Virus record (IMG/VR): IMGVR_UViG_3300038427_000657
Coordinates: 1-64,000 of that record
Reading direction: 5' to 3' (one strand)
DNA length: 64,000 nt
Source of the DNA: a virus
Part shown: piece by piece, positions 11,794 to 46,576 of the stretch
Numbering within the stretch: the first letter of the stretch is position 1
Layout: each line of letters begins with the position of its first letter
Position numbers and translations under genes: made by a program
Notes under the pieces: model-generated
The model's database searches: none
What the model saw: the letters and a program-made list of their open reading frames with translations, nothing else
Told to the model about the DNA's origin: nothing

Positions 11794-11796
11794 AAA

Positions 11797-24073: not shown

Positions 24074-24085
24074 ATTGTGGCGTAA

Positions 24086-24113
24086 AGTTTACACCACATT
24101 AAAAATCCGTCAA
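24086..24113 (-). promoter_or_regulatory. Early-type promoter
   Basis: TTGACG, 16 bp, TAAACT. Confidence 0.7.
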
Positions 24114-24119
24114 GCCTCG

Positions 24120-24332: not shown

Positions 24333-24341
24333 AGTATTTGT

Positions 24342-24369
24342 AATTTATACCACAATAGAACTTTGTCAA
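24342..24369 (-). promoter_or_regulatory. Early-type promoter
   Basis: TTGACA, 16 bp, TAAATT. Confidence 0.7.
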
Positions 24370-24380
24370 GCGTCACTGTT

Positions 24381-24599: not shown

Positions 24600-24631
24600 A
24601 GGACCAAATTTACTTGACTTTTGTAGGGTTG

Positions 24632-24874
24632 TCAAGTTTCTATAAGTTTTCCATCTTTGAGAATATTCTCGTCAATGGCTCTATCACGGGCATCGTAAAA
24701 GTAAAGTGGTCGACCGTTTATTTCAATCCAAATAGCAGTTTCCAACACTTGATATGATAAACCTTCACCGTTTAAGTGTTTTTGAACCCAATTGAACATA
24801 GCGGTAAAAGCTTCCTTGAAGGAGTTACATTTTACAGGTTCTTGGTCCAAAGCAATAAAAGTGTAGTTTTCCAT
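24632..24874 (-). CDS. Hypothetical protein
   Basis: 80 aa from the ATG at 24874, 4 nt after a short upstream ORF's stop; a longer start at 24934 in the same frame is possible. Contains WVQKHLNGEG and a beta strand IWIEING. Confidence 0.55.
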   Translation of the reverse strand: MENYTFIALDQEPVKCNSFKEAFTAMFNWVQKHLNGEGLSYQVLETAIWIEINGRPLYFYDARDRAIDENILKDGKLIET

Positions 24875-24878
24875 AACA

Positions 24879-24953
24879 TTACTTTCGTTTGTAGAACCGC
24901 ACTGACATGCGAACCATGTTGGTACTTCGTTCAATGTAAAATCGTATTGTCAT
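24879..24953 (-). CDS. 24-aa leader or small peptide
   Basis: Begins in a CACAATG context just after the promoter and ends 4 nt before the next ATG. Arg/Lys-rich (VRMSVRFYKRK). May be a leader peptide setting downstream translation. Confidence 0.35.
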   Translation of the reverse strand: MTIRFYIERSTNMVRMSVRFYKRK

Positions 24954-24995
24954 TGTGAGTTGAATTTATCAAACATTCAAGAAATGTCAAGCGTG

Positions 24996-25310
24996 TCAGT
25001 CAGTGAAACTGAAACACTCCGGACATAATCCCTGATATTTATACCACGTTGTTTTTGAAACTTGTTCACCACACTCTTCGTTTTGACAGTGATATGTCTT
25101 TTCGACTTTCCGATAGTCAGACGGATTTGTTGAACCTTGAATGGTTGGATTGGCACGCCAAGCCGAAGCCGGCGTCTTGTAACCAAGCTGTATGTGATTA
25201 TTGTAAATGCGACAAAAGGATTCAAATTCAGTAAAGTCTTTATACTGGTCTTGTAGTTTCCCTTGCCATCCCATCAAACCAGATTTACAAATAACAGATT
25301 TTCTTTTCAT
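24996..25310 (-). CDS. Hypothetical zinc-ribbon protein
   Basis: 104 aa. Start at 25310 in CACAATATG context; the longer frame reads through the promoter. C-terminal CQNEEC and CPEC pairs form a zinc ribbon. Confidence 0.7.
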   Translation of the reverse strand: MKRKSVICKSGLMGWQGKLQDQYKDFTEFESFCRIYNNHIQLGYKTPASAWRANPTIQGSTNPSDYRKVEKTYHCQNEECGEQVSKTTWYKYQGLCPECFSFTD

Positions 25311-25352
25311 ATTGTGATGGAAGTTTACATTTCTTTTAGCAAATGTCAAGCG

Positions 25353-25508
25353 TCACACAATGATACTGGCTACTTTGAGATTTGCGATTGTGTCCTTGGT
25401 GTTCCGGCCCCTTGAAACATTAGCAATCCTCGCAATGTTTCGGAGTTGTTCCCTTGTAAGGGATGGATGTTTAAATGATTGTCGCCAGTAATTGTAAAGT
25501 ATTTTCAT
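25353..25508 (-). CDS. 51-aa basic protein
   Basis: Starts in CACAATATG context downstream of an early promoter; helical, with LTREQLRNIARIANVSRGR resembling a small helix-turn-helix or SAP-like nucleic-acid-binding unit. Its TGA sits beside the next promoter. Confidence 0.6.
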   Translation of the reverse strand: MKILYNYWRQSFKHPSLTREQLRNIARIANVSRGRNTKDTIANLKVASIIV

Positions 25509-25563
25509 ATTGTGATTGTAGTTTATATGAAAAATTCAATTTGTCAAGCCTCACTGTCAACGC

Positions 25564-25591
25564 TTGACAATTTTTAAAGTTATGTTATTAT
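25564..25591 (+). promoter_or_regulatory. Early-type promoter of ncRNA copy 1
   Basis: TTGACA, 16 bp, TATTAT on the plus strand. Confidence 0.7.
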
Positions 25592-25607
25592 TTTCTCATA
25601 ATAAACG

Positions 25608-25712
25608 ATGTGGCTGAAAGATGCCGGAGAGTAGGGGACTGGAGTCTGCGGTGATTCCTTTAACGTTATCTGAAAACAACCGCAAGAGTCAGGTGAGCCG
25701 AAGCCCACCTAA
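25608..25712 (+). ncRNA. Dispersed small RNA family, copy 1
   Basis: Conserved core: GGC/GCC hairpin, AGAGTAGGGGAC, TGGAGTCTGCGGTGATTCC, then TTTAACGTTA. Followed by a stable AGGTGAGC-CGAA-GCCCACCT hairpin (about 25693-25712). No ORF. Related copies at 27123, 30090, 36391 and 46457. Confidence 0.6.
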
Positions 25713-25731
25713 CTCCCACAATATGACCAAC

Positions 25732-26289
25732 TTACCGACTTACCAATTCCAAAGTGTCGCCGTTCACTTTGACTTGTGCGATTTGTGACGAGTCAAGAGC
25801 GAACTCGCGGAACTTGCTGACGGTTAGCATATTGCGGATTTTGTTTTGTTCAATCGTCAGCGGCCGGCTGTTCACTGTCGGGTAAATCCCTTCAACCAAT
25901 ACCGTTTTTGCGTGAGACAATCCGAAAAGTTGAATTGTATTGTCGGCGGTGTTCAAGTTCACGCCGTTACCAATCGGAATGTATTGGCCCCTTTTCGTGT
26001 AATCTTCGTTTTGTTCCCCGCGGGCGTGTGCCTCCAGAGTCTTTTTGAGGCTGGCCATGACATTTGCGGCTGCCTGTTTGGTTAATTCATTCCACGTTGC
26101 GGAGTTTTCCGCCGTGAGAATTTCCAGTTCAGTAACGGATTTTTCAACCGCTCGGTGGTAGGAAAACCCGACATTGATAGTGTGACGGGCCAATTCCCCA
26201 CTTTTCTTTGCCAAGTAGGTAATGGAAACAAACTGGTTTCCTTTAATGGCCGTCAGAGCCTTTGTAATTTCTGCGACTAAGTTTGTCAT
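25732..26289 (-). CDS. Hypothetical protein
   Basis: 185 aa, higher GC than neighbours. An N-terminal alpha/beta part carries the basic segment KKSGELARHTINVGFSYHRAVEK, and a C-terminal part ends in beta strands. Early promoter and the same ribosome-site-free A-rich leader as 21998 and 44077. No family recognised. Confidence 0.7.
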   Translation of the reverse strand: MTNLVAEITKALTAIKGNQFVSITYLAKKSGELARHTINVGFSYHRAVEKSVTELEILTAENSATWNELTKQAAANVMASLKKTLEAHARGEQNEDYTKRGQYIPIGNGVNLNTADNTIQLFGLSHAKTVLVEGIYPTVNSRPLTIEQNKIRNMLTVSKFREFALDSSQIAQVKVNGDTLELVSR

Positions 26290-26354
26290 ATTTTGTGTTT
26301 TTGTTTATGTTTGTTTCAACCAACAAAAACAGTTTATATTTGTTTTAAAAATTG

Positions 26355-26555
26355 TCAAGCCTTGTGGAACCGATGTTGCGGATTCGGGGGATTAGGCGAA
26401 ACATTGGTTTTCAAAGGAAAACCGGAAATTCTGACAGTCACAGGTTTCGGTTTCAATCCGTTACCGGCGCCGGTTTTGTCACTCGGAGTGCGGTGACACA
26501 TAGGGCAACAACGTTCGTTTTCGTCGTATTCAGTTTGACAGTAGTGGCAAATCAT
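26355..26555 (-). CDS. Small zinc-ribbon protein
   Basis: 66 aa: CHYC (3-6) and CPMC (17-20) form a zinc ribbon, followed by a Pro/Gly-rich basic tail. Own early promoter. Confidence 0.7.
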   Translation of the reverse strand: MICHYCQTEYDENERCCPMCHRTPSDKTGAGNGLKPKPVTVRISGFPLKTNVSPNPPNPQHRFHKA

Positions 26556-26592
26556 AATGGTATTTTATACTTGTTTTAGAATTTGTCAAGCG

Positions 26593-26850
26593 TCAATCGT
26601 CAAGGTGATTGACGATGCGAGATTGAACTTTGGCAGCATCGTGAAATACTTTGTGCATATTGACTCGGCCAAGATTATCCATCGTGCCAGACCGTTTCAC
26701 AGCACCATTGATGATGCGTGCCACTTTGTCAGCCGTTGCCCGACCACCGGGCATAAGCGGCGTAACGTATTCGTAATTTGGTGCGGTGAATTTCCAGCGG
26801 CGCCCTGCGGCTCCGTAGGTAACGTTTTCGTGAATATATGTTTTTGTCAT
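26593..26850 (-). CDS. Hypothetical protein
   Basis: 85 aa; start at 26850 after the promoter-derived extension. Arg/Lys-rich, with MPGGRATADKVARIINGAVKR near the centre. Unknown. Confidence 0.6.
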   Translation of the reverse strand: MTKTYIHENVTYGAAGRRWKFTAPNYEYVTPLMPGGRATADKVARIINGAVKRSGTMDNLGRVNMHKVFHDAAKVQSRIVNHLDD

Positions 26851-26885
26851 ATCGTGCCGGTAGTTTATATTACTTTTAAGAAATG

Positions 26886-27074
26886 TCAAGCCTCAATTTT
26901 TATTGGGGCGTCAACAATTTGAAAAGTGCTGTCAACAAAAGAAATGTTGTTATCAACTAAGACGTTTTCAATTTGTTCTTCTATAAGAGGAACGTTGCTT
27001 GTAATTTCGTAAATTTTGGGAGAAGGAATTGACTCAGATTCCTCAACGAGAACAAAATATTTGTGTTTTTTCAT
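26886..27074 (-). CDS. Hypothetical acidic protein
   Basis: 62 aa; start at 27074 behind an early promoter. Weakly similar in layout to the protein at 28974 (short strand, acidic loop, NxLVDxxISF-like helix-strand). Ends in Ala-TGA in the next -35. Confidence 0.6.
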   Translation of the reverse strand: MKKHKYFVLVEESESIPSPKIYEITSNVPLIEEQIENVLVDNNISFVDSTFQIVDAPIKIEA

Positions 27075-27122
27075 ATTGTAGTAACAATTTATATTAGTTT
27101 TAGAAAATGTCAAGCGTCACTT

Positions 27123-27198
27123 TTTAACGATAAAGTAATCAACGCACTCTCTGGTCCCTTACTCTTGGCGCTTTTCAGTCGGCCTCAAACTTTATTGT
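27123..27198 (-). ncRNA. Dispersed small RNA family, copy 5 (minus strand)
   Basis: Reads AAGAGTAAGGGACCAGAG, TGCGTTGATTACTTTATCGTTA on the minus strand, preceded by a GGC/GCC hairpin. Directly downstream of an early promoter (27205-27232); no ORF. Confidence 0.6.
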
Positions 27199-27204
27199 AA
27201 GAAA

Positions 27205-27232
27205 ATTTTACCATTGTTTTAAGAAATGTCAA
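27205..27232 (-). promoter_or_regulatory. Early-type promoter of ncRNA copy 5
   Basis: TTGACA, 16 bp, TAAAAT. Confidence 0.7.
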
Positions 27233-27243
27233 GCCTTCGTCTT

Positions 27244-27552
27244 TCAACGAAGATACGCCGGTCCATAAGGTCCCATGCTGCCCAATCCGTTAAAAGTATC
27301 AAAAATGTTGCCTCTTGCGTGTTTGGCGGGTGCTTTCCATGATGCCGGTTTAAGCACGTCGCCGTTGGTGCGGTCAATGAAAGCATGAGCGGAATTGTCT
27401 CGCATGACACGAATATATCGACTGCCTTCGGTAGCCGTTATTGTGGGCACATCCAATGATGGAAAACTTGCGGCCATGTAGGCCCTGTTTTTATCGATGA
27501 TGCCCTGCATCCATGATTTGAATTCGGGCGTTTCAAGAGTGACGTTAATCAT
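27244..27552 (-). CDS. Hypothetical protein
   Basis: 102 aa starting in CACAATATG context at 27552. Contains HAFIDRTNGDVLKPASWKAP, reminiscent of small phage proteins with DxxNGDVLK..W. A DUF with unknown role is possible. Confidence 0.65.
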   Translation of the reverse strand: MINVTLETPEFKSWMQGIIDKNRAYMAASFPSLDVPTITATEGSRYIRVMRDNSAHAFIDRTNGDVLKPASWKAPAKHARGNIFDTFNGLGSMGPYGPAYLR

Positions 27553-27587
27553 ATTGTGATGGTAGTTTATATTTCTTTTTAGAAATG

Positions 27588-27986
27588 TCAAGCCTTCCGA
27601 ACAATTCGACATTGTTCTCGTAAACATCCACTAACAAGATAAGGTTGATGCGTCACAACATAAACACGTTTGAACTTTTTCGCGTCGGGATTTTCCTGCA
27701 ATGCACATTCAAACTCCATTGCTTCTCCGGGTACCATCCAACGGTCAGGAAAAACAAAATAATGTGGTCCTGCACCAATCGGTTGACGTTTCAACACTCT
27801 TTCAATCAATCCCATTCCTGCGTCACGAATGTATTCCCACCGTTCATCCCGTGGACCGGGTGAATCAATACGACCACAAACAGCCATTAAGTAATCAAAC
27901 GGCTGATTATATTCCGCTGGGCGAACATAATCCTTAAACATTTCGTCAATTTGATTAAACGGATTTGTAACAATGATTTTACCCAT
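27588..27986 (-). CDS. Hypothetical protein
   Basis: 132 aa, start at 27986 behind an early promoter. Mixed alpha/beta; GAGPHYFVFPDRWMVPGEA near residue 75. No family recognised. Confidence 0.65.
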   Translation of the reverse strand: MGKIIVTNPFNQIDEMFKDYVRPAEYNQPFDYLMAVCGRIDSPGPRDERWEYIRDAGMGLIERVLKRQPIGAGPHYFVFPDRWMVPGEAMEFECALQENPDAKKFKRVYVVTHQPYLVSGCLREQCRIVRKA

Positions 27987-28026
27987 AATTTTATTTAATA
28001 TCAATTTACCAAAAAAATTGTTTCTG

Positions 28027-28464
28027 TCAAGCCCCGTAAATCCTTGACCAACATTCTGGTCCGATACCACGGCGAATTGATTCCGGGACTGTTAGAGTGC
28101 GGCCACAGCAGCCACATTTCCCTTCATGGTGAATCGTTCCATTTTTTAACGTCATTCCGTTAAATACACCTTGCATAACCCACTTAAAGATAATGACATC
28201 GGAGGAATTTTCATTTCGTTTGCTTTTGGATGTCAGGCGGAAGAAACCGGTGGCCTTGTCAACCATTCCGATATACGCGTAACTATTTTCGTTGTCAGGA
28301 CCGGCCAACAAAAAGACACCATAAGAAGGATTATGAAACCGTTCGGTTTTCTTGAAGCGGCGAATTTTATACGTTCGCCACGCGTGAGTCACGTCTGATT
28401 CAACAGTGAAAGTTGCGTTACCACCGAAGAAGAAATTTTTGTTTAATTCAATTGTGTTTGTCAT
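28027..28464 (-). CDS. DUF6011-like zinc-motif protein
   Basis: 145 aa. C-terminus GKCGCCGRTLTVPESIRRGI then GPEC matches the CGxCGRxLxxPxSxxxGIGPxC motif of DUF6011-like phage proteins, binding zinc. Start in CACAATATG context at 28464. Confidence 0.75.
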   Translation of the reverse strand: MTNTIELNKNFFFGGNATFTVESDVTHAWRTYKIRRFKKTERFHNPSYGVFLLAGPDNENSYAYIGMVDKATGFFRLTSKSKRNENSSDVIIFKWVMQGVFNGMTLKNGTIHHEGKCGCCGRTLTVPESIRRGIGPECWSRIYGA

Positions 28465-28509
28465 ATTGTGATGACATGATACAATTGTTTTAACAAATGT
28501 CAAGCTTTG

Positions 28510-28761
28510 TTAGGGGTATTTAATCGTTGTCGGTAACATCAAATGGTTAAGATAGTTACATTCAACATCATGGGAAATCATCCGGCGACATGACATTATT
28601 GTTGGAAAATCAAAACGATAAGCTGCCCAATTACGACTGCGGAAAATTTCACAATTTTTCTTTTCTTCGTGAAAAGCTTTGTCAGCAGCTTCGGGTGTAT
28701 GATACCATTCAACCCCGTTACCGTCCCTGCTTTCCCATGCTACAACGTAAACTTTTTTCAT
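28510..28761 (-). CDS. Hypothetical protein
   Basis: 83 aa; an N-terminal VYVVAWESRDGNGVEWYHTPEAA strand-turn-strand suggests a small alpha/beta fold. Own early promoter. Confidence 0.65.
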   Translation of the reverse strand: MKKVYVVAWESRDGNGVEWYHTPEAADKAFHEEKKNCEIFRSRNWAAYRFDFPTIMSCRRMISHDVECNYLNHLMLPTTIKYP

Positions 28762-28803
28762 ATTGTAAAATCAGTTTACATTTGTTTTGAGAAATGTCAA
28801 GCT

Positions 28804-28959
28804 TCACTCATCACGGCCAAAATCCCTTGTCAAATTTTCTTCCACGGAAGAAACAATAAAATCTGTTAATTCTTTTTCCGTAGTAGGTTCATCGTAACCA
28901 CTGATTCCAACTTGACGTTGAATGCGTTCAATCAATTTGTCAGGAATTTCAATTTTCAT
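28804..28959 (-). CDS. 51-aa acidic protein
   Basis: Complete small ORF with ATG at 28959; helical and Glu/Asp-rich (LIERIQRQVGISGYDEPTTE). Similar in layout to antitoxin-like or DUF-type small regulators, but unassigned. Confidence 0.55.
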   Translation of the reverse strand: MKIEIPDKLIERIQRQVGISGYDEPTTEKELTDFIVSSVEENLTRDFGRDE

Positions 28960-28973
28960 AACGTTAATTGTTA

Positions 28974-29180
28974 TTAGAAACGTTGACCAATTAAACCTTG
29001 TGCTTCAACGGGTTTAACAGCACGAATTTCGGAATAACCAACCTTGTGGTCCATTAGCATAGTATTCACAAGCCGGTCATTGTTAGCAGGAGTAGCAATC
29101 AGTTGCTCGTGTTTTACATTGTTGCGATACCACACAACAATACACATTTTCGTTATCGGAAGCTTAAAGTGTGTTTTCAT
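28974..29180 (-). CDS. Hypothetical protein
   Basis: 68 aa; start at 29180 in a CACAATATG context. Strand-rich with YSEIRAVKPVEA near the end. May be a distant relative of 26886-27074. Confidence 0.6.
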   Translation of the reverse strand: MKTHFKLPITKMCIVVWYRNNVKHEQLIATPANNDRLVNTMLMDHKVGYSEIRAVKPVEAQGLIGQRF

Positions 29181-29215
29181 ATTGTGATTGAAGTTTATAC
29201 AATGTTTATAAAATG

Positions 29216-29440
29216 TCAAGCCACTTTCACGGCATTGGCTTTGATTTCAGCAACATAAACGTCGCCCATTTCACCATTGGGACAAATGGGAGTGACAACA
29301 TTACAAAACCACCGTGCATAAGGTTTGTTATCGTCTGCCTGCCATTTTTTCAGAACATTCCACGTCCATGTTCCATCAAATGAACGCCATACTTCGTAAG
29401 GTTTGTCCTTTGGTCGCGTCTTACCACAAAGATTTTTCAT
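29216..29440 (-). CDS. Hypothetical CPNGE-family protein (1)
   Basis: 74 aa. W/Y-rich, with ICPNGEMGDVYVAEIKA at the C-terminus, paralleled by LCPNGEIRKVCCDVLK in the protein at 31279-31590, so the two look paralogous. Confidence 0.65.
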   Translation of the reverse strand: MKNLCGKTRPKDKPYEVWRSFDGTWTWNVLKKWQADDNKPYARWFCNVVTPICPNGEMGDVYVAEIKANAVKVA

Positions 29441-29470
29441 AACAATAATTTACCAAAAAAGTTGAAACTG

Positions 29471-29968
29471 TCAAGCCTCTTTAACGCCAGTGAATATTGG
29501 TTTATTTCCCATGCCAAGGGTATGTGAAAAAACAGGTATATCGTCTCTATTATTTTTGCCAGAAAAAGGCATAGACCGTTCCGACCTGTAAAGAAATATA
29601 CCAACACAGTTTGGTTCGGTTTCATTCTCAAATTCATAATGGTCTTTAATAGTATCCAGTATTGATTGAATCGTTTTGCCGGAAGAAATAAAATCATCAA
29701 AAATGATATATTTTTTCATTCCAACATGGCCTTCGAGACGGCCGCAACCGGCGTGAGAATCATCAGAAGGTTTTCTGCAAATGGTGACAAATTTTTCAAG
29801 TTGATGAGCAACTATCGGAGCCATAAGAGCACCCGACATTCCCCGAAAAACAATAGTATCAAATTCAATTTTAGACAATTCAATTAATTTGATTACTCCG
29901 TCAATTGTCGCGTGAGACTTTTTCGGGTCCAATGCGACATCCAGATAACTTGTTGAAATGTTGCTCAT
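29471..29968 (-). CDS. Phosphoribosyltransferase-family protein
   Basis: 165 aa. YIIFDDFISSGKTI (around residues 107-120) is the type I PRTase PRPP-binding loop (DD-x-x-[ST]-G-x-T), and FRGMSGAL earlier fits the first phosphate loop. Probably acts in nucleotide salvage or modification; substrate not inferable. Start at 29968 in CACAATATG-like context. Confidence 0.85.
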   Translation of the reverse strand: MSNISTSYLDVALDPKKSHATIDGVIKLIELSKIEFDTIVFRGMSGALMAPIVAHQLEKFVTICRKPSDDSHAGCGRLEGHVGMKKYIIFDDFISSGKTIQSILDTIKDHYEFENETEPNCVGIFLYRSERSMPFSGKNNRDDIPVFSHTLGMGNKPIFTGVKEA

Positions 29969-30022
29969 ATTGTGATACCACTTTATCAATTTCTTTTAGA
30001 AAGTCAAGCGTTGCGGTGGCGC

Positions 30023-30050
30023 TTGACATTTCTTAAAACAATGGTAAAAT
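30023..30050 (+). promoter_or_regulatory. Early-type promoter of ncRNA copy 2
   Basis: TTGACA, 16 bp, TAAAAT. Confidence 0.7.
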
Positions 30051-30056
30051 GTTTTC

Positions 30057-30154
30057 AGAAATTGGGAATGGGTTGGCGGCGACACCGAAAGCCAGACTAG
30101 CGAAGAAAGCGAAGGGTAGGGGACCGGAGCCTGCGATGATTCCTTTAACGTTAA
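30057..30154 (+). ncRNA. Dispersed small RNA family, copy 2
   Basis: Core GTAGGGGACCGGAGCCTGCG then ATGATTCCTTTAACGTTA at 30115-30153. A longer GC-rich 5' part precedes it than in other copies. No ORF; a second plus-strand promoter follows at 30164. Confidence 0.6.
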
Positions 30155-30163
30155 TGGTCACGC

Positions 30164-30192
30164 TTGACAATAATTGAATTTTATGTTAAATT
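30164..30192 (+). promoter_or_regulatory. Early-type promoter without an obvious gene
   Basis: TTGACA, 17 bp, TAAATT. Its transcript runs into the 3' end of the minus-strand HNH gene at 30233, so it may make a short RNA or antisense transcript. Confidence 0.5.
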
Positions 30193-30232
30193 CGTGGTAA
30201 GCGTAAAGTAGTGTGCTCAAAAATAGGTGATA

Positions 30233-30781
30233 TTATGCGATATGATGATTGACTATATTTTGACAGAATGAGAAAAATTCAGCATCGGACATAGTGTGTT
30301 TTGCTGTATTAACGGCTCTTGTCACCAATCTTAGATTTTCTAATATATTGGTGCCGCCCTTGCTTCGTGGTATAATGTGGTCAACCGAAATGTTTTCAAT
30401 GGTTAATTTTTCTCCAGAAATTGGGCAGCGCAGTCCCTGTTTTTTTGCGAGGCTCCATAAGTCTAAAGCAGTTATCTTACCAATCTTACATAATCGGTTA
30501 GTATGTCTAGCCATTAGTTGAAATGTATGACATTTATATCTTTGATAACCCATCTTCTTTTGCCAATAGGGAGATTTACTGCGCCTCTCCATTTTCTTTT
30601 CTCTTGATATTACTGTAATTTTTTCATAGTAGCGCTTCCATTTTTTTCTTAATTTTTCATAACGAATAGGGTCATTCCTAATTCTTTTTATTTTTCGTTT
30701 ATATGCTTCTTTACGCTTCTGTTTGTAGTGTTTATACCGTTTTGAGTCTTGTTTCAGTTTTTCTTTTAACTCTTTCCTCAT
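30233..30781 (-). CDS. Free-standing HNH homing-type endonuclease
   Basis: 182 aa. The N-terminal 80 residues are Lys/Arg/Tyr-rich helix (DNA binding); CPISGEKLTIENISVDHIIP-RSKGG-N (116-141) is the HNH core, with catalytic His in DHIIP and N in LENLR. Paralogue of 49135-49587. A TATTTAT box (30787-30793) lies 5 nt before the ATG; the longer upstream frame is non-coding. Confidence 0.85.
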   Translation of the reverse strand: MRKELKEKLKQDSKRYKHYKQKRKEAYKRKIKRIRNDPIRYEKLRKKWKRYYEKITVISREKKMERRSKSPYWQKKMGYQRYKCHTFQLMARHTNRLCKIGKITALDLWSLAKKQGLRCPISGEKLTIENISVDHIIPRSKGGTNILENLRLVTRAVNTAKHTMSDAEFFSFCQNIVNHHIA

Positions 30782-30786
30782 ACCCC

Positions 30787-30793
30787 ATAAATA
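30787..30793 (-). promoter_or_regulatory. TATTTAT box
   Basis: 5 nt before the HNH ATG at 30781. Confidence 0.5.
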
Positions 30794-30844
30794 TCTTTTG
30801 CGGCACCAAAACGCAGAAAAATAGCGCGGGGGGTCCTTAATTTT

Positions 30845-30884
30845 ATTTTCCGCTGGGGGTACTATCCCGCCCACTATAGGGTTA
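30845..30884. repeat. Dispersed intergenic hairpin (GGGGGTACTAT type)
   Basis: GGGGGTACTATCCC plus CTATAGGG; one of seven related intergenic hairpins. Confidence 0.5.
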
Positions 30885-30927
30885 ATGGAGTTAAAAATTC
30901 CACCAAAGCCAAGCATGAATTCTTGGA

Positions 30928-31017
30928 TTACAAGCTAGTGTAAGTCTTCTTGGAAACCAATACTTCAATACTACTCTGAATGGTCTTGTAGGTTTCTTTA
31001 ATACCATTTTCACAAAA
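30928..31017 (-). other. In-frame continuation after a TAA stop
   Basis: 29 codons directly after and in frame with the stop of the gene at 31018-31245, reading FCENGIKETYKTIQSSIEVL..., which looks coding but has no start codon. Possible read-through extension or split-gene remnant. Confidence 0.4.
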
Positions 31018-31245
31018 TTAAAGTGTTTCAAGATAAAGCCATTCACGGTCTTTCTTTGTCCAATAGTAACGACTGTAATTCAACCCAGTTTTAAGTTCCA
31101 CCAAAACAGTATCATAAATAACACCAATACCGAATAGTTTATCGATATCGTCACGATTGACCAAAAGACAATTCTGGCGAGCTTCGGTTCGGACTTCAAG
31201 TTCCGTAAACCATTTCTGGGCTCGTTCCAATGCCATATTGTTCAT
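31018..31245 (-). CDS. Hypothetical protein
   Basis: 75 aa (or 72 from the second Met in AACAATATG context). Alpha/beta with VYD-x-VLVELKTGLNYSRYYW. Followed in frame by a plausible C-terminal extension beyond TAA. Confidence 0.65.
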   Translation of the reverse strand: MNNMALERAQKWFTELEVRTEARQNCLLVNRDDIDKLFGIGVIYDTVLVELKTGLNYSRYYWTKKDREWLYLETL

Positions 31246-31278
31246 AATGGCTTAAATATACGAAACTTTTAGAAAATG

Positions 31279-31590
31279 TCAAGCGGCGATTTGAGGAAAA
31301 ATCTTTTGTTGACGTTTAAAGTATGTATCAGTATTCCTTGGTTTCAGAACATCACAACAAACTTTTCGTATTTCACCATTCGGGCAAAGAACAAAAGATG
31401 TCCAATATAATCCATTCCAAAATCGACTGGGAGCGGCTTCGGGGTCTTTATATTTCCTTACTTCTGTTCCCACCAGTAAACCGGGGTTCTCATTACTAGA
31501 AATCTCAGCAATGACAAAATAACTGTGAGAAGCTACTACTGATGCAGCTTGGGTATGGCGGTCAATGTGAGATTTGATAGACTTGGGCAT
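31279..31590 (-). CDS. Hypothetical CPNGE-family protein (2)
   Basis: 103 aa; FVLCPNGEIRKVCCDVLK links it to 29216-29440. Overlaps the upstream gene by 29 nt, so coupled. Ends Ala-Ala-TGA within the next -35 box. Confidence 0.65.
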   Translation of the reverse strand: MPKSIKSHIDRHTQAASVVASHSYFVIAEISSNENPGLLVGTEVRKYKDPEAAPSRFWNGLYWTSFVLCPNGEIRKVCCDVLKPRNTDTYFKRQQKIFPQIAA

Positions 31591-31846
31591 AATCGTTTGG
31601 TCCTTTTAGACGAATAATTTTTGCAGTTATTTTGTCAATTGAGTCATCAAGTTTAAGAACATCATCTGCGGTGAAATATATTGCAAAATCTGTACTTTGA
31701 AAATGAAAACCAAGAGGATATTTTTCAGGCAATACCGTTAACTGACCAACCCATGAATCACTTTGCGTTCCAAATCCATCCCGAACAATAACAATGGTTT
31801 TACCATTGAGTAAATTCAACTCATGTTCCATTAATTCTACATTCAC
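31562..31846 (-). CDS. Hypothetical protein
   Basis: 94 aa, beta-rich N-terminus (GKTIVIVRDGFGTQSDSWVG) and FYFTADDVLKLDD later. Early promoter upstream, divergent from the plus-strand block. Confidence 0.65.
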   Translation of the reverse strand: MNVELMEHELNLLNGKTIVIVRDGFGTQSDSWVGQLTVLPEKYPLGFHFQSTDFAIYFTADDVLKLDDSIDKITAKIIRLKGPNDYAQVYQISH

Positions 31847-31892
31847 AATATCAATTTACCATAGATTTTTTAAATGTCAAGCATCCAAACGC

Positions 31893-31920
31893 TTGACATT
31901 TTATAGAATCGTGATAACGT
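31893..31920 (+). promoter_or_regulatory. Early-type promoter, start of plus-strand block
   Basis: TTGACA, 16 bp, TAACGT; divergent from the promoter of 31562-31846. Confidence 0.65.
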
Positions 31921-31926
31921 AACGCC

Positions 31927-32109
31927 ATGATTAAAAATCGTTTTGAAGTTGGTGAAGCAGTTATGGTTACTCCAAAAGCCGAAGATGATTGGCATGAGTT
32001 TTTGGGAACGGTGAAAATAATCCGTCACGATGGCCTTTTAATCACAGTTGAGGACCAAAAGGGAGATTGTTTTGATTGTGACCCTGACCAAGTTAATTTA
32101 TTGGAATAA
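31927..32109 (+). CDS. Hypothetical small beta protein
   Basis: 60 aa, likely small barrel (FEVGEAVMVTPKAED, GTVKIIRHDGLLITVED), similar in feel to SH3/KOW-like folds. Followed after 3 nt by the next ORF. Confidence 0.65.
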   Translation: MIKNRFEVGEAVMVTPKAEDDWHEFLGTVKIIRHDGLLITVEDQKGDCFDCDPDQVNLLE

Positions 32110-32112
32110 ATA

Positions 32113-32259
32113 ATGAAATCAGATTCAGAAGAAATTGACATAGAAGAGGAACGACTTCCTGATTCTGTAGAAGTATTAGAAGAACTTAACAAATTACCTG
32201 CTTATCGAGAATTCCTTCGTGAACGCAATGATGAATCATTAACATACGGTGATACATAA
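32113..32259 (+). CDS. 48-aa acidic protein
   Basis: Very acidic (SDSEEIDIEEERLPDSVEVL), helical. Start 3 nt after the upstream stop. Confidence 0.55.
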   Translation: MKSDSEEIDIEEERLPDSVEVLEELNKLPAYREFLRERNDESLTYGDT

Positions 32260-32262
32260 AAT

Positions 32263-32337
32263 ATGGAACCTTATACCGTTGTTTTAGCTGGATTTGGTAT
32301 TGTAGTCATAATTCTTATTCTTCGTCAAAAGGCTTGA
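32263..32337 (+). CDS. 24-aa membrane peptide
   Basis: Single TM segment (VVLAGFGIVVIILIL) then RQKA; the TGA stop lies inside the next promoter's -35 box (32334-32339). Confidence 0.5.
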   Translation: MEPYTVVLAGFGIVVIILILRQKA

Positions 32338-32361
32338 CTTTTTCTAATTCCACAGTAAGAT
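32334..32361 (+). promoter_or_regulatory. Early-type promoter
   Basis: TTGACT, 16 bp, TAAGAT. Confidence 0.65.
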
Positions 32362-32368
32362 ATAAAAT

Positions 32369-32545
32369 ATGACACCGTTACCATTGAATCCAAAAGTGCT
32401 AATTCTTATTGACCCTAAAACGGGTGAACGGTTAGCAACCGCATCAAATATTGACCCGAAACTTTTCGTGAATATTACAGATAACCCAGATTATTTCAAG
32501 GAACAAGCTAAAGGGTTGCCATTCAACGAACTTCAGCCTAATTAA
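32369..32545 (+). CDS. 58-aa hypothetical protein
   Basis: Begins PLPLNPKVLILIDPKTGERL; complete ORF behind its own promoter. Unknown. Confidence 0.6.
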   Translation: MTPLPLNPKVLILIDPKTGERLATASNIDPKLFVNITDNPDYFKEQAKGLPFNELQPN

Positions 32546-32560
32546 GTCATCAATAAGCGC

Positions 32561-32588
32561 TTGACTTTTTTTCATATCCTTCTATAGT
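32561..32588 (+). promoter_or_regulatory. Early-type promoter
   Basis: TTGACT, 16 bp, TATAGT. Confidence 0.7.
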
Positions 32589-32589
32589 T

Positions 32590-32811
32590 ATGGATGATAT
32601 GAAAAAAGTGAAATTTTTAAAGTTGACCACGGTTGACTATGATGAAGGTAACGATATGCCGGGTGAAAAAACCTTTTACCCGAATGATACCATTGACGTT
32701 TATTCCATAGAAGAAACTCAGGGACGAAGTTTCGTTGACATTTGGCTGGAAAACGATTCTGTTTTATTGGATGTTCCAAAAACTTCATTTGAAGTGATTC
32801 AAAACATTTGA
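32590..32811 (+). CDS. Hypothetical protein
   Basis: 73 aa (70 from the second Met). Beta-rich, with KKVKFLKLTTVDYDEGND. The ATG lies directly at the promoter's predicted start, so the message may be nearly leaderless. Confidence 0.6.
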   Translation: MDDMKKVKFLKLTTVDYDEGNDMPGEKTFYPNDTIDVYSIEETQGRSFVDIWLENDSVLLDVPKTSFEVIQNI

Positions 32812-32835
32812 CAATTTTATAAAAACGTGTAAAAT
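32808..32835 (+). promoter_or_regulatory. Early-type promoter
   Basis: TTGACA, 16 bp, TAAAAT; -35 contains the upstream stop. Confidence 0.7.
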
Positions 32836-32845
32836 ATCATTCAAC

Positions 32846-33499
32846 ATGAAACATTTATCAAAATTTTTAGGAACTCTTCTATCATTAGTAATAGTTCTAA
32901 CTTCAACCACTGAAAGTGCTACTCTTACCGTAGGATGGAACAAAAGTGTAAATCCAGCTGTAGCTGGTTATAAAGTTTATTACGGTACTATTTTAGGAAT
33001 TTATACAAGTGTTATCACTAATAGTAACGCAAGTATAACAAACCAAACAATTTCTAATTTATTACCAAAAACAGTTTATTATTTTGTAATCAGTTCTTAT
33101 GATATAAATAAACTTGAAGGTTCATTTTCACCAACAATACATTATTCAACAGATTTTCAATTGTTATCTACACCAAATCTTCGAGTTAATATAACAACAA
33201 ATTTAGTAGGCTACTGGCAAACTAATTATAGTCCTGTTTTACATAGAACTAATATATTTTACATACCAGTAGGATATACATGGACAAATTATCCAATAAC
33301 TAATTTAACTATTTCATTACCGTGGATACCAACAAATGCAACATCGTGGACATTGTGGGCTTCAACCAATCTTGGTAATCCATTATGGTCTATTTATGCA
33401 AGTAATCATAATAATACTCCACTTGCAAGTGTAAACGCACCTATTGGACCCGGTTATCCCCCTATTGAATTTTTCAGATTTTCATATAGAACCAACTAA
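32846..33499 (+). CDS. Secreted fibronectin type III-like protein
   Basis: 217 aa with signal peptide (FLGTLLSLVIVLTSTTESA) and an Fn3 domain (LTVGWNKSVNPAVAGYKVYYG...YYFVISSYDI, about 26-100), then a Thr/Asn-rich tail with more strands. Probably exported or membrane-tethered in the host; adhesion or superinfection roles possible. Confidence 0.8.
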   Translation: MKHLSKFLGTLLSLVIVLTSTTESATLTVGWNKSVNPAVAGYKVYYGTILGIYTSVITNSNASITNQTISNLLPKTVYYFVISSYDINKLEGSFSPTIHYSTDFQLLSTPNLRVNITTNLVGYWQTNYSPVLHRTNIFYIPVGYTWTNYPITNLTISLPWIPTNATSWTLWASTNLGNPLWSIYASNHNNTPLASVNAPIGPGYPPIEFFRFSYRTN

Positions 33500-33502
33500 C
33501 GC

Positions 33503-33530
33503 TTGACAATTCTATAAAAAGATATAAAAT
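33503..33530 (+). promoter_or_regulatory. Early-type promoter
   Basis: TTGACA, 16 bp, TAAAAT. Confidence 0.7.
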
Positions 33531-33539
33531 ATCATCATT

Positions 33540-33839
33540 ATGGCAAGAAAAGAAAAAGGTTACTCACACAAAAAGGCCGATGTTCGCAAGGCTCGGAAAC
33601 GGGAAGAAGCCGAAACTCGGCAACTCAAATATAACAGACTATCACGAGCAGACAAAATTACTCTTGTTACCAACCGTGGTGGAAGTCAACGAGAACTTGC
33701 TCGGCTTATACAATTGAAGGAAAAGCAACCTGCTCAAGCACCAGTAGCAACGGTGACTGAAAAAGAAACGTCACCAAGGCGGACATCAAAGTCCGAAGTG
33801 GTAAGAGCTGCTAAAACAAAGCGGCCAAGCAGGTCATAA
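33540..33839 (+). CDS. Highly basic protein
   Basis: 99 aa, about one third Lys/Arg (ARKEKGYSHKKADVRKARKR), plus a PAQAPVATVTE linker and basic tail. Likely binds nucleic acid. Followed by the structured RNA at 33848. Confidence 0.7.
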   Translation: MARKEKGYSHKKADVRKARKREEAETRQLKYNRLSRADKITLVTNRGGSQRELARLIQLKEKQPAQAPVATVTEKETSPRRTSKSEVVRAAKTKRPSRS

Positions 33840-33847
33840 GATTTTAA

Positions 33848-34034
33848 ACGGGGTAACCGAACAGTATAAAGTTTGAGTGGCGGCGAAGGCCCATAAGCTT
33901 CGTGTAGTAGGAACCCCGTCAATTTAATGGCCAGAGCCGTAAAAGGCGGATGCTGACTAAATCGTAGGGAGTGCTTGGATTTGACTACGATTGACCAAGA
34001 GGCGTTGGTAACTGGAGAAGACCCAGACTGGCCA
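33848..34034 (+). ncRNA. Multi-branched structured RNA
   Basis: 187-nt non-coding interval with two closed domains. Domain 1: ACGGGGT 33848-33854 pairs ACCCCGT 33913-33919, enclosing CGAAG/CTTCG. Domain 2: TGGCCAG 33928-33934 pairs CTGGCCA 34028-34034, enclosing GCC/GGC, ATCGTAG/CTACGAT (33961-33991), ACCAA/TTGGT (33994-34009) and CTGG/CCAG (34012-34026). It ends 7 nt before a 48-aa ORF, so it could be a cis-regulator or an independent RNA. No known family recognised. Confidence 0.7.
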
Positions 34035-34041
34035 CCAATTT

Positions 34042-34188
34042 ATGGGTAAAAGTTACAGACATGACAGTAAGAATGAACGTTGGCGCAAAGCCAAACAGCA
34101 AAAGTCTCGTAAATCAAACAAATTGAAACTTCAACCTTTTGTTGATGATGACCCCCGACAGTATCCTAATTTTGAAGGTGGTTCGTAG
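34042..34188 (+). CDS. 48-aa basic protein
   Basis: Begins GKSYRHDSKNERWRKAKQQK, strongly basic N-half and acidic C-half. Starts 7 nt after the multi-branched RNA. Confidence 0.6.
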   Translation: MGKSYRHDSKNERWRKAKQQKSRKSNKLKLQPFVDDDPRQYPNFEGGS

Positions 34189-34194
34189 AAAGGC

Positions 34195-34222
34195 TTGACT
34201 TCTATAAAATCTTTGATAAATT
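34195..34222 (+). promoter_or_regulatory. Early-type promoter
   Basis: TTGACT, 16 bp, TAAATT. Confidence 0.7.
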
Positions 34223-34228
34223 ACCGCC

Positions 34229-34495
34229 ATGATAAACACCTTTGAAGTCACTCTAAAAGTTATAGTTCATTCCGATGAAAAAAGCGGATTTCTGGACGAA
34301 AATTCAATTAAAGGATTGATCAATCAAGGAATGGAAACCATAGCTGAGAGATTTGATGGTCTGACTATCGTTGGTGATAAAAATGAGACTTCACCTAATT
34401 CTATCAATGTTCAAGTAACCAGCCTCAAAGTTGGTGGAAAAAAACGAAATCCTGATACTTTTGGAACCGATGATATTCCTTGGGGCCGGGACTAA
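34229..34495 (+). CDS. Hypothetical phage protein
   Basis: 88 aa, alpha/beta (TFEVTLKVIVHSDEKSGFLD), acidic tail. Own promoter. No family recognised. Confidence 0.65.
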   Translation: MINTFEVTLKVIVHSDEKSGFLDENSIKGLINQGMETIAERFDGLTIVGDKNETSPNSINVQVTSLKVGGKKRNPDTFGTDDIPWGRD

Positions 34496-34498
34496 GGC

Positions 34499-34526
34499 TT
34501 GACTTCTATAAAAAGTGTGGTATAAG
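34499..34526 (+). promoter_or_regulatory. Early-type promoter
   Basis: TTGACT, 16 bp, TATAAG. Confidence 0.65.
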
Positions 34527-34532
34527 AATACC

Positions 34533-34655
34533 ATGAACATTCTAAAATTAGTTGGATTTGTATTTCTTTGTATTACATTTCCATTATGGGTTGGGCCGTT
34601 AGTTGTTGTAATTCTTGTGGCTACCATAATTGATGGTATTACTTTTGAACACTAA
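34533..34655 (+). CDS. 40-aa membrane protein
   Basis: Two short hydrophobic stretches (LKLVGFVFLCITF; GPLVVVILVATII). Confidence 0.55.
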   Translation: MNILKLVGFVFLCITFPLWVGPLVVVILVATIIDGITFEH

Positions 34656-34666
34656 AATAGAGTTGT

Positions 34667-34945
34667 ATGACCAACTTGGAATCTTTTGGCTCTATTCGTC
34701 ATTACAAACTTTTAATCCTTAGAGTCAAGGATGATAAGATTTTGTGGCGAAAAGTTTCCAACATTCTCAATAATCTTCGCCGTGACCTTCGCCCTTGGCA
34801 AGTAGTTGACCGAACAAATCAATTACGAGAAGGTGAAAAATACGCAATTCAGGCTCTTCGAGACACAAAACTTCCCCGCGATGTGAAAATCTACATGATT
34901 ACGGGAATGATGTCTGAATTCGGTTTTACCTTTGAGAACGCTTGA
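34667..34945 (+). CDS. Hypothetical basic protein
   Basis: 92 aa, Arg/Leu-rich helices (WRKVSNILNNLRRDLRPW). Ends Asn-Ala-TGA in the next -35 box. Confidence 0.65.
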   Translation: MTNLESFGSIRHYKLLILRVKDDKILWRKVSNILNNLRRDLRPWQVVDRTNQLREGEKYAIQALRDTKLPRDVKIYMITGMMSEFGFTFENA

Positions 34946-34969
34946 CTTTCTACAAAATTTTAGTAAATT
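34942..34969 (+). promoter_or_regulatory. Early-type promoter overlapping a stop
   Basis: TTGACT, 16 bp, TAAATT; the TGA of 34667-34945 lies within the -35. Confidence 0.7.
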
Positions 34970-34975
34970 ACCGTT

Positions 34976-35377
34976 ATGAGTTTAAAACAAACAATTGATA
35001 AAGCCATTAAACAAATTGTGGCCGATGCTGAAACTCACGGTAAACTTTCTTATGGTGATGGAATTAAATGGCGTGAAGAATTGACATTACTGGAAAATCG
35101 ACTGGCAACTTTAGATATGGCAAACCGTCCCGGTCTAAACCCCGGACGCCATATCAAATTCCAAGTTGCAGATGGTTACGCAAATTGTATCGTCACAAAA
35201 GTTCTAAAAAACATTGTTCACGTTGTTCATGTTCCCATTCTTGACGGTTATCACTTCAACGGAATATATCAAGACGAAAGAGGGCACCTTTGCCTTCCCC
35301 GTCCTGTTGCTCAACGGTCAATAGATTGGGACGAAAAAATGGAAATTCTTTTCAAAAAGAAAGATACCACAGTATGA
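34976..35377 (+). CDS. Hypothetical protein
   Basis: 133 aa; N-terminal helices then a beta-rich domain (KFQVADGYANCIVTKVL; HVPILDGYHFNGIYQ). Overlaps the next ORF by ATGA. Confidence 0.65.
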   Translation: MSLKQTIDKAIKQIVADAETHGKLSYGDGIKWREELTLLENRLATLDMANRPGLNPGRHIKFQVADGYANCIVTKVLKNIVHVVHVPILDGYHFNGIYQDERGHLCLPRPVAQRSIDWDEKMEILFKKKDTTV

Positions 35378-35514
35378 TTAAATTAAATCCAAAAATACTG
35401 AAAAGAATATGGGTTAAATTTCGTCTTAATTTAATCAACACTTGTAAAGCACCCAAACCTTATCAAGTTTCCAGTTTCTTCTACAAAGCATTAAGAGAAG
35501 GTTTTATCCAATAA
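35374..35514 (+). CDS. 46-aa basic protein
   Basis: Starts inside the upstream stop (ATGA). Basic helix (LNPKILKRIWVKFRLNL). Confidence 0.55.
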   Translation: MIKLNPKILKRIWVKFRLNLINTCKAPKPYQVSSFFYKALREGFIQ

Positions 35515-35517
35515 AGC

Positions 35518-35545
35518 TTGACAAAATCTAAACATCCGATATAAT
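35518..35545 (+). promoter_or_regulatory. Early-type promoter
   Basis: TTGACA, 16 bp, TATAAT. Confidence 0.75.
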
Positions 35546-35552
35546 TATTATC

Positions 35553-35759
35553 ATGAACAGATTGGAAATTTTGGTTCTGAATAAATCAGCAGAAGTTTAC
35601 ACTCGTTATTGCTCAATTGATGATACTATATCATTTCTCCGCAGAGTTAGAATTCATAATTTCAGTATTGTTGCTCATAAAGGAAGAAAAGCAATTTTCA
35701 TCGAACGGATTGACCCATCAACTTTGGTTAAAGAATTAACCGATTTCCAAAATCAGTGA
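35553..35759 (+). CDS. Hypothetical protein
   Basis: 68 aa, alpha/beta. Its TGA overlaps the GTG of the next gene. Confidence 0.6.
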   Translation: MNRLEILVLNKSAEVYTRYCSIDDTISFLRRVRIHNFSIVAHKGRKAIFIERIDPSTLVKELTDFQNQ

Positions 35760-36154
35760 GTAATCGAACACTCAAAGAGGAATTACACAAAAAAGACCCC
35801 CGTTGTCATTGGTGCAGAAGAGTCACAAAACTTATATGTGAACCTACAATAAAGGGGCAGCCTGACCCACTCATGGCAACAATTGACCATGTGGTTTCCC
35901 GTTATAATGTCCATCGATGGGTAAAGAAAAAAAAGAGAAGTCAAAAACGCAAAGTGTTGGCATGTTTTGAGTGTAATCATAACAGGTCTGTAAGAGAAAC
36001 CCTTTCTTTATCTCGTGCTGAAATCTTAAAACGAAGTCAGGGATTTTCCTTATCTCCCCGTGGTAAACCGAAGATTATTAAACCATTATCCACCGTTCGT
36101 GAAGTGCTTGCCAAACTAAAACCTTCTGATAATATAAAAACTGTATATGGATGA
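35756..36154 (+). CDS. HNH-family endonuclease
   Basis: 132 aa from a GTG. CHWC (17-20) and CFEC near residue 73 are zinc pairs around ATIDHVVSRY, the HNH core (DH), with N in CNHNRS. Basic C-terminus. Mobile or packaging-linked nuclease; context gives no choice. Confidence 0.8.
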   Translation: MSNRTLKEELHKKDPRCHWCRRVTKLICEPTIKGQPDPLMATIDHVVSRYNVHRWVKKKKRSQKRKVLACFECNHNRSVRETLSLSRAEILKRSQGFSLSPRGKPKIIKPLSTVREVLAKLKPSDNIKTVYG

Positions 36155-36353
36155 AAAAGAATTTTCCGAATTCTTAAGCAAAATTTTCAAACTTAAACCA
36201 GACCAACTGGAACAAATGTTTGTTTGTCTTGCTGATAATTTTCGTTGCAATAGGGGCAAAGATATAAATTACCCAGCTCTTGCGTGGCGTTGCAAACAAG
36301 CATATCAGATTATCCAGCACCGCACTCCACCAAAGTCAAGAAGCAACGCTTGA
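36147..36353 (+). CDS. Hypothetical protein
   Basis: 68 aa; overlaps the HNH gene by 8 nt and ends Asn-Ala-TGA inside the promoter of ncRNA copy 3. Confidence 0.6.
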   Translation: MDEKEFSEFLSKIFKLKPDQLEQMFVCLADNFRCNRGKDINYPALAWRCKQAYQIIQHRTPPKSRSNA

Positions 36354-36377
36354 CATTTCTTAAAACAATGGTAATAT
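36350..36377 (+). promoter_or_regulatory. Early-type promoter of ncRNA copy 3
   Basis: TTGACA, 16 bp, TAATAT. Confidence 0.7.
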
Positions 36378-36390
36378 TTCCCCATAGTAA

Positions 36391-36455
36391 AGATGTGGCT
36401 GAAAAACGCCGGAGAGTGGGGGACCGGAGGATCTTTAAATTACTTTATCGTTATA
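36391..36455 (+). ncRNA. Dispersed small RNA family, copy 3
   Basis: GATGTGGCTGAAAAACGCC hairpin, then GGAGAGTGGGGGACCGGAG, and TTACTTTATCGTTA. The 3' half is closest to copy 5. No ORF. Confidence 0.6.
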
Positions 36456-39087: not shown

Positions 39088-39147
39088 AAAGGGCGCCGGT
39101 GATAGGGAGCGCAAATAACTAACACCGACTGCTGCTTCTACCTATCA
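39088..39147 (-). terminator. Long-loop hairpin and T-run
   Basis: CGGTGATAGG and CCTATCACCG form a 10-bp stem with about 40-nt loop, followed by GGCGCCCTTTTT on the minus strand. Likely ends the giant RNA 2/tRNA-fMet transcript or acts in the leader of 38900-39085. Confidence 0.55.
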
Positions 39148-39234: not shown

Positions 39235-39239
39235 ATTCA

Positions 39240-40122
39240 AATGCGTTCCGGAAGGATTCGCTTGTTACCTTCGACTATTCTTACCTTTCAGTTATTCAGT
39301 CAGTTGGAACCCGTCGATTCCTAAACCACGCCGTTATGGCTTATTAGCGTGATTACAAAGGATTTTTCAGTTGGCCTACTTAGTCATCCTTTACCTTACT
39401 TACTCCGGCTACTTTCGTATCCATAAAGATTCTTCACCTTCATGTTACTTTACTGCTAACGGTAGCAGTTACTCAGTCACGGAACACAAAATTATTCAAA
39501 GAACGTCTTTTATTGATGGAGAGTTTTAGAGGAAACAATATCGTCTTGCATTACCCTCGCAGCAGCTTACTGTTTTCACCAACAAAAAATTATCTTATCA
39601 CAACTTAATAGATTATCAAGCTTTGTTGGTGGTTCACGGTAGCAGGTAGGAATCTTTAAGGGTTTGAGCCAACCTAAATGTCCTTATTCAGGAACCTATA
39701 TGCCAACAAAAAATTCATGGGCTGGATGATTGGTTATGAAAGTTGCCGCTTTCAGCCAATCGGCAATACAGCCTCTACAATTTCATCTGGTCATCCTCAG
39801 AAACTTAGACCGGCATGGACCAAGTTTCTTACTTAGCCGACTCCAGACGGCCCCTTTCGGAGCATTCATTTCTTTCCACATTACCATCAGCATTACGCCG
39901 ATACGTTGTAGTCTCAACCTTCGGGTCGCTTAGCGGCCACGAGTAATCTTCTTACTCTCTTTTCCTAACAATTGGGTTTCAACTGTCTCCGGTGTTTCGG
40001 TATTTGTTCCCGGCGCTTTTATTTAAGCTAAGAACGCTTTACTGTCACGTTCTAGTCATCTCCCAGCTTTGGCTAATTCCAATGGGAACATCGCTCACCG
40101 GCGACTTTTACCACTGGACAAC
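39240..40122 (-). ncRNA. Giant structured RNA 2 (GOLLD/ROOL-like candidate)
   Basis: About 880 nt without a credible ORF, from an early-type promoter (40129-40156) to tRNA-fMet. Clear hairpins: GCTCC-GAAA-GGGGC (39850-39863), CGACC-CGAA-GGTTG (39915-39929), ACTGCTA-CCGT-TAGCAGT (39452-39469) and AGAACG/CGTTCT (40031-40053). Architecture (own promoter, tRNA neighbour, no ORF) parallels giant RNA 1, but the two sequences are not obviously alike. Confidence 0.75.
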
Positions 40123-40128: not shown

Positions 40129-40156
40129 ATAGTATCAAAGAACCAAAAAATGTCAA
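40129..40156 (-). promoter_or_regulatory. Early-type promoter of giant RNA 2
   Basis: TTGACA, 16 bp, TACTAT; overlaps the 3' end of the gene at 40153. Confidence 0.75.
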
Positions 40157-40344
40157 GCCTCTGATTTTCCTAATTCCCTCAATCTCTGGTCACCAGAACC
40201 TACAATTTTACCTTCACGCGTTCTGGTTCGATTATCACCCTTATCATGTCTAGCAACAAGCTTTCCACTACCATCACGAAGCCAATTGCCATCTTGGCGA
40301 CCAATGATTTTACCTTCGCGGTTTCTTATGAAATTATCTGGCAT
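40153..40344 (-). CDS. Short-repeat protein
   Basis: 63 aa made of three imperfect about 18-residue repeats (R-x-R-E/D-G-K-I/L-I/V-G/A-R), e.g. REGKIIGRQDGNWLRDGSGK. Such repeats form beta-hairpin stacks. Ends Glu-Ala-TGA in the next promoter. Confidence 0.65.
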   Translation of the reverse strand: MPDNFIRNREGKIIGRQDGNWLRDGSGKLVARHDKGDNRTRTREGKIVGSGDQRLRELGKSEA

Positions 40345-46456: not shown

Positions 46457-46576
46457 TTGTGGAGATAAACCTCCAGAGAGTAGGGGACCGGAGCCTGCGA
46501 TGATTCCTTTATCGATAATTATTATAAACGCACGTGAACGGCGCCGACTTTACTATCGTCAGCGCCGTTACTTTTT
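46457..46576 (+). ncRNA. Dispersed small RNA family, copy 4, with terminator
   Basis: GGAG-ATAAAC-CTCC (same hairpin as GGC/GCC in other copies), AGAGAGTAGGGGACCGGAG, CCTGCGATGATTCCTTTA, then AACGGCGC/GCGCCGTT stem and T5 (46537-46576), a rho-independent terminator. About 120 nt; no ORF. Confidence 0.7.
46537..46576 (+). terminator. Terminator of ncRNA copy 4
   Basis: 8-bp AACGGCGC/GCGCCGTT stem, T5. Confidence 0.7.

Follow-up and report, generated by a model that had tools for sequence, protein, structure and literature searches.

A probable new family of structured phage RNA upstream of tRNA-Met, with a loop that may mediate self-association

RNA 2, a non-coding region directly upstream of a tRNA-Met gene in a phage that also carries GOLLD, almost certainly represents a small family of structured phage RNAs that is new. 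Its members, found in three phages, have a compact 3' core of ~245 nt in which numerous base pairs have changed on both sides while remaining paired, and a loop in this core (L6) holds a different palindrome in each of them. Known large ornate RNAs are few, with functions that are not yet settled; the RNA 2 family, compact, constant in its gene neighborhood and equipped with a loop whose self-pairing can be tested, lends itself to asking whether RNA self-assembly is general in phage RNAs.

The RNA 2 locus and its conserved core

The window, the 64,000-nucleotide stretch of viral DNA analysed here, belongs to a 189-kb IMG/VR record (IMGVR_UViG_3300038427_000657), and an identical copy of the same stretch is present in a 365-kb record (IMGVR_UViG_3300038424_000251). 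As the terminase of the latter is related to T4-like phage terminases and the record carries 54 tRNA/tmRNA genes, it is that of a jumbo phage. The window also holds a phage-encoded tmRNA (16049-16452, minus strand), a suppressor-like tRNA with a CUA anticodon, called Pyl (9952-10026, minus strand), and a 28-43 bp repeat before several small genes (~24000-36400 and 46477-46519), which is probably a repeated promoter/leader. RNA 2 lies on the minus strand, which the preliminary description had left unsaid, and reads from promoter P1 toward tRNA-Met, in the gene order helicase, tRNA-Arg(UCU), 63-aa ORF, gap, tRNA-Met, tRNA-Glu and gp88-like gene. The features are as follows, all on the minus strand:

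40153-40344, minus: 63-aa ORF upstream of promoter P1, a gene-order marker, ~41-55% identical to ORFs in the corresponding position of L166, L167, L168 and L178
40129-40156, minus: promoter P1, TTGACA-16-TACTAT with extended -10 (TG); L165 and L178 have matching promoters in the corresponding position
39235-40122, minus: RNA 2 at the largest extent that is likely, 888 nt counted from its expected start up to the last base ahead of tRNA-Met; no ORF, more structured than shuffles, ends inferred
40079-40117, minus: conserved 5' hairpin (7 bp, internal loop, 4 bp), common to the window, L165 and L178
39488-40078, minus: variable middle with stable hairpins, unalignable to relatives
39592-39619, minus: possible internal promoter P2, TTGATA-16-TAAGAT with extended -10; a similar stretch occurs in L178
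39243-39487, minus: conserved 3' core of ~245 nt, a closed domain of 11 helices (alignment A4, model R1)
39373-39376, minus: GGCC, the palindrome within L6, a loop spanning 39377-39372; GAUC in L165 and GUAC in L178
39158-39234, minus: tRNA-Met(CAU), initiator-like, starting 8 nt after the core
39100-39147, minus: hairpin after tRNA-Met, kept in L165; possible transcript end or separate small RNA
8388-8852, minus: RNA 1, matching GOLLD (Rfam RF02032, 155 bits), with a promoter of the same type at 9465-9438

The preliminary description had taken the region for a giant RNA without an ORF and with its own promoter, and both of these points are borne out: the RNA 2 region contains no sense ORF, the longest sense stop-to-stop run being 48 codons, and promoter P1 (40156-40129, minus strand) stands before it. 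Multiple perfect hairpins had also been reported; this holds in a loose sense, as a perfect inverted repeat of 10 bp is found along with several shorter helices. Compared with dinucleotide shuffles, the folding energy of the whole region gave z = -3.3 (20 shuffles), that of the 5' part (39500-40122) z = -3.4 and that of the core z = -3.7, with none of 200 shuffles as stable. The coding windows that served as a comparison set had a mean z of -0.57, and since the lowest one reached -3.6, folding energy alone is weak evidence and the case for RNA 2 rests on covariation.

Relatives were reached through synteny, starting from an alignment of the helicase (A3). The last ~270 nt of RNA 2 are matched at 82% in L165 (IMGVR_UViG_3300035696_000047) and at 74% in L178 (IMGVR_UViG_3300000553_000004), and the order helicase, tRNA-Arg(UCU), RNA, tRNA-Met and gp88-like gene is common to both, although L165 yielded no 63-aa ORF and L178 no tRNA-Glu call. 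Two different DNA patterns, run over all of IMG/VR, retrieved three contigs only, those of the window phage, L165 and L178, and covariance model R1, with scores of 290-314 bits, detected the same three phages among 65 sources (1.24 Mb) and 32 phage records. GTDB genomes contained no copy of RNA 2 and plasmids no match to it; in GenBank phages, blastn gave matches to tRNA-Met only, among the matches listed, and a search with the core alone gave short chance matches. Blastn against 50 terminase relatives likewise returned chance matches only, except in the same phage. L162, picked up through a 17-mer match, was dropped as a relative since the match lies in a coding region.

The core is closed by helix P1 (39487-39480 paired with 39250-39243). 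Alignment A4 of the three sequences supports 69 pairs, with 97.6% of the cells paired, and 21 of these pairs have changed on both sides and are still paired, as against a mean of 8.2 in shuffled alignments, none of 500 of which reached 21. When the structure was slid along the alignment, at most three both-side changes were seen; the structure was built from the same three sequences on which it was tested, which gives it an edge over the slid controls, yet the gap is large. The 5' hairpin, for its part, has both-side changes in six of 12 consensus pairs, and three pairs are broken in one sequence. The two conserved elements are separated by a middle part that could not be aligned when the full regions were compared using MAFFT, and which spans ~590 nt from hairpin to core in the window, compared with roughly 200 nt for L165 and 350 nt for L178. 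Within this variable part CACCAACAAA is flanked by two identical copies of AATTTTTTGTTGG (39579-39591, 39622-39631 and 39703-39715, minus strand), either of which can serve as its partner, a possible alternative pairing.

Transcript extent and the junction with tRNA-Met

Promoter P1 belongs to a class, TTGACA-N13/14-TGnTAnnAT, with 22 sites in the 365-kb phage and zero to one in ten shuffles, and one of these 22 sites is the promoter of RNA 1. The stricter pattern of P2 has only one further copy in the 365-kb phage. In L178, a TTGACA-16-TAAGAT promoter ends where the core begins and another promoter precedes tRNA-Met, whereas in L165 the same scan detected promoter P1 only and no internal promoter. 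Thus, at least one relative can produce the core by itself, while a single RNA is favored in L165.

The preliminary description had an initiator tRNA as the neighbor of RNA 2. A tRNA-Met does adjoin it, with a body matching phage tRNA-Met genes at up to 91% and an A.A mismatch at position 1:72, as in initiators, but the three stacked G-C pairs typical of initiators are absent. Neither a promoter nor a terminator was found in the 8-nt gap between core and tRNA-Met in the window, so this tRNA would be transcribed from P1 or P2 unless a promoter is hidden in the core, and it is likely, judging from this layout, that tRNA-Met is cut from the RNA 2 transcript in the window. The arrangement that joins the two is not conserved: the corresponding gap is ~67-69 nt in L165 and L178, and the L178 tRNA has a separate promoter. 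Since L178 has separate promoters for core and tRNA, function may depend neither on the tRNA linkage nor on the long 5' part.

That RNA 2 is one 0.9-kb molecule from which tRNA-Met is cut is thus plausible. A division of the region into two RNAs, viz., a 5' RNA of ~450-530 nt from P1 and a core RNA from P2 that is joined to tRNA-Met and functional by itself, is a serious competitor, though we lean against it. It would account for the L178 promoters directly before the core and before tRNA-Met, for the weaker similar site in the window (39619-39592) and for a precedent in L166-L168, where the same slot holds two promoters and two RNAs; it sits poorly with L165, in which the same scan found no internal promoter, and with the conservation of P1 and the 5' hairpin along with the core. 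The ~0.9 kb of the preliminary description is therefore best read as an upper limit, given that conservation is limited to the 5' hairpin and the last ~245 nt, and what stands of its giant RNA of RNA 1-like architecture is a structured non-coding RNA that has its own promoter, differs from RNA 1 and shows covariation among relatives, but not the single ~0.9-kb molecule. We consider it improbable that RNA 2 is a long structured leader of tRNA-Met, which would control the processing or supply of the initiator-like tRNA without self-association. The 8-nt gap with no promoter in it, and the presence of a structured RNA before tRNA-Met throughout the six phages compared, that of the window among them, are what such a leader would predict; the wider gap in L165 and L178, the tRNA's own promoter in L178, the palindrome pattern of L6 and a core of 11 helices, more elaborate than a leader requires, speak against it.

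Loop L6 and the same slot in other phages

Among the unpaired columns of the core, L6 is the only window in which complementarity is kept in all three sequences, and each of the three is self-complementary. Column shuffles produced a variable palindrome in 1.8% and three different palindromes in 0.6% of cases. As four adjacent loop bases cannot pair within a chain, the conserved palindrome suggests that two copies of the RNA pair with each other. The symmetric intermolecular kissing loop of OLE is reported to behave alike, its GGCC switching to GAUC or AGCU (PMC12286853). A loop palindrome that covaries between relatives, a trait of ornate self-associating RNAs, is thus found in RNA 2 over three sequences; with three independent members only, the palindrome evidence is thin. 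On these grounds, we put the chance that RNA 2 copies bind each other through L6 slightly below even, and a cage-like RNA 2 particle is a speculative and rather unlikely extension of this idea.

Combining these observations, we consider it about evenly balanced whether RNA 2 founds a phage RNA family that is released from a tRNA-Met transcript and acts as a self-associating scaffold by means of L6. The RNA 2 transcript would run into tRNA-Met, and RNase P would cut at the 5' end of the tRNA, which would free RNA 2 with the core at its 3' end. The L6 palindrome would then join RNA 2 copies, perhaps giving rise to a self-associating scaffold like OLE, GOLLD and ROOL. A role in the control of tRNAs or translation may be guessed from the placement in a tRNA island.

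The slot between helicase and tRNA-Met is occupied differently in L166 (IMGVR_UViG_3300025536_000038), L167 (IMGVR_UViG_3300031772_000204) and L168 (IMGVR_UViG_3300019458_000020), where it reads promoter, RNA-A, promoter, RNA-B and tRNA-Met, with RNA-C further on:

L166 ~8660-9240, L167 ~4372-5235, L168 ~11674-12345: RNA-A and RNA-B, with a separate promoter before each
L166 ~9390-9523, L168 ~12925-13055, L167 at the same place: RNA-C, compact and structured, located between tRNA-Met and tRNA-Glu; the stem that closes it is CUUAGC/GCUAAG

Compensatory changes occur in four of 19 pairs of RNA-B, and 10 of 37 pairs of RNA-C are changed on both sides over the three phages; an Rfam scan that covered the RNA-C part of G022 (L136) gave no match there. 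RNA-A and RNA-B were considered as distant homologs of RNA 2 and rejected, the unfiltered core model giving background scores only, and in a MAFFT alignment of the L166-L168 slot RNAs with the window little was aligned beyond the promoters, so that this alignment is not taken as evidence of homology. RNA-A, RNA-B and RNA-C are separate candidates from RNA 2. A supposed fourth RNA (RNA-D) has the look of a divergent gene for tRNA-Gly; at ~9605-9705 in L166 and at 12666-12742 in L178 there is a gene resembling tRNA-Gly(UCC) whose T arm is altered and which ARAGORN did not call. The region after tRNA-Met in L178 (~12360-12660) is ORF-poor with apparent hairpins and is possibly another structured RNA.

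Related phages place a different structured RNA in this slot, which suggests that different RNAs serve a common need. A bolder proposal is that RNA 2 is a fourth natural RNA class that self-assembles without protein into a symmetric particle, in a phage that carries GOLLD, and that the unrelated slot RNAs of related phages make these RNAs interchangeable; we regard this as doubtful.

Comparison with known large RNAs

RNA 1 (8388-9465, minus strand) is a GOLLD RNA with a tRNA inside it (8786-8715). The preliminary description saw no obvious sequence similarity between RNA 1 and RNA 2, and direct comparison agrees; a short similarity between the 5' end of RNA 1 and the 3' end of RNA 2 (CGGAACGC) was rejected as chance. 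The covariance search it had proposed gave the same answer, as the GOLLD model found RNA 1 while returning no RNA 2 match at E up to 10 and none in the L165 and L178 records. The ROOL model (RF03087) gave no RNA 2 match at E up to 10, with the 14-genome control also lacking a match, and the OLE model (RF01071) matched neither RNA 2 nor the control genomes; the ROOL and OLE negatives are thus less secure than the GOLLD one, which had RNA 1 as its positive control. None of the three RNA 2 members had a credible match among the Rfam 15 models, model R1 found nothing in the 1-kb gap of Vibrio phage ICP1 that holds an RNA of ~800 nt, and no description of an RNA like RNA 2 at such a place was found in the open-access literature.

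These results bear on two further explanations. That RNA 2 is a ribozyme or ligand-binding RNA, with an active site formed from the conserved purine-rich junctions, would explain the many invariant unpaired stretches of the core (GUGAAGAAUC, ACGAAAGUA and GUAACAAGCGA); it strikes us as quite improbable, as Rfam offers no credible ribozyme, riboswitch or intron match and the tRNA is the only downstream gene to control. Less probable still, to the point that we give it hardly any weight, is the reading of RNA 2 as a GOLLD or ROOL that is a remnant or has diverged greatly: the phage and tRNA-island setting, a variable part followed by a conserved 3' domain and the GOLLD-type promoter would all fit, but RNA 2 shares no sequence similarity with RNA 1 and remains unmatched by either model even at E 10 in a window where GOLLD itself is detected.

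Considered as a distinct family, RNA 2 has several likenesses to known large RNAs. Like GOLLD, it is large, phage-encoded, located in a tRNA island and made up of a conserved 3' part and a variable 5' part, and the GOLLD RNA of the same phage lies only 30 kb away behind the same type of promoter; its helices, however, differ from those of GOLLD, whose model it does not match. GOLLD forms a 14-mer RNA cage. With ROOL it shares the phage and tRNA setting, large size and a variable stretch inside. The ~800-nt non-coding RNA of Vibrio phage ICP1 (PMC7567579) is likewise a large orphan phage RNA and similar in size, though no tRNA is near it, whereas the lncRNAs of phage K (PMC9241854), likened to RNA 2 by description only, are large and adjoin tRNA genes, at least one of them having its own promoter. 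OLE, unlike the phage-encoded RNA 2, is cellular and has protein partners, but it has a loop whose palindromic tetranucleotide switches (GGCC, GAUC), a resemblance in kind to L6 of RNA 2.
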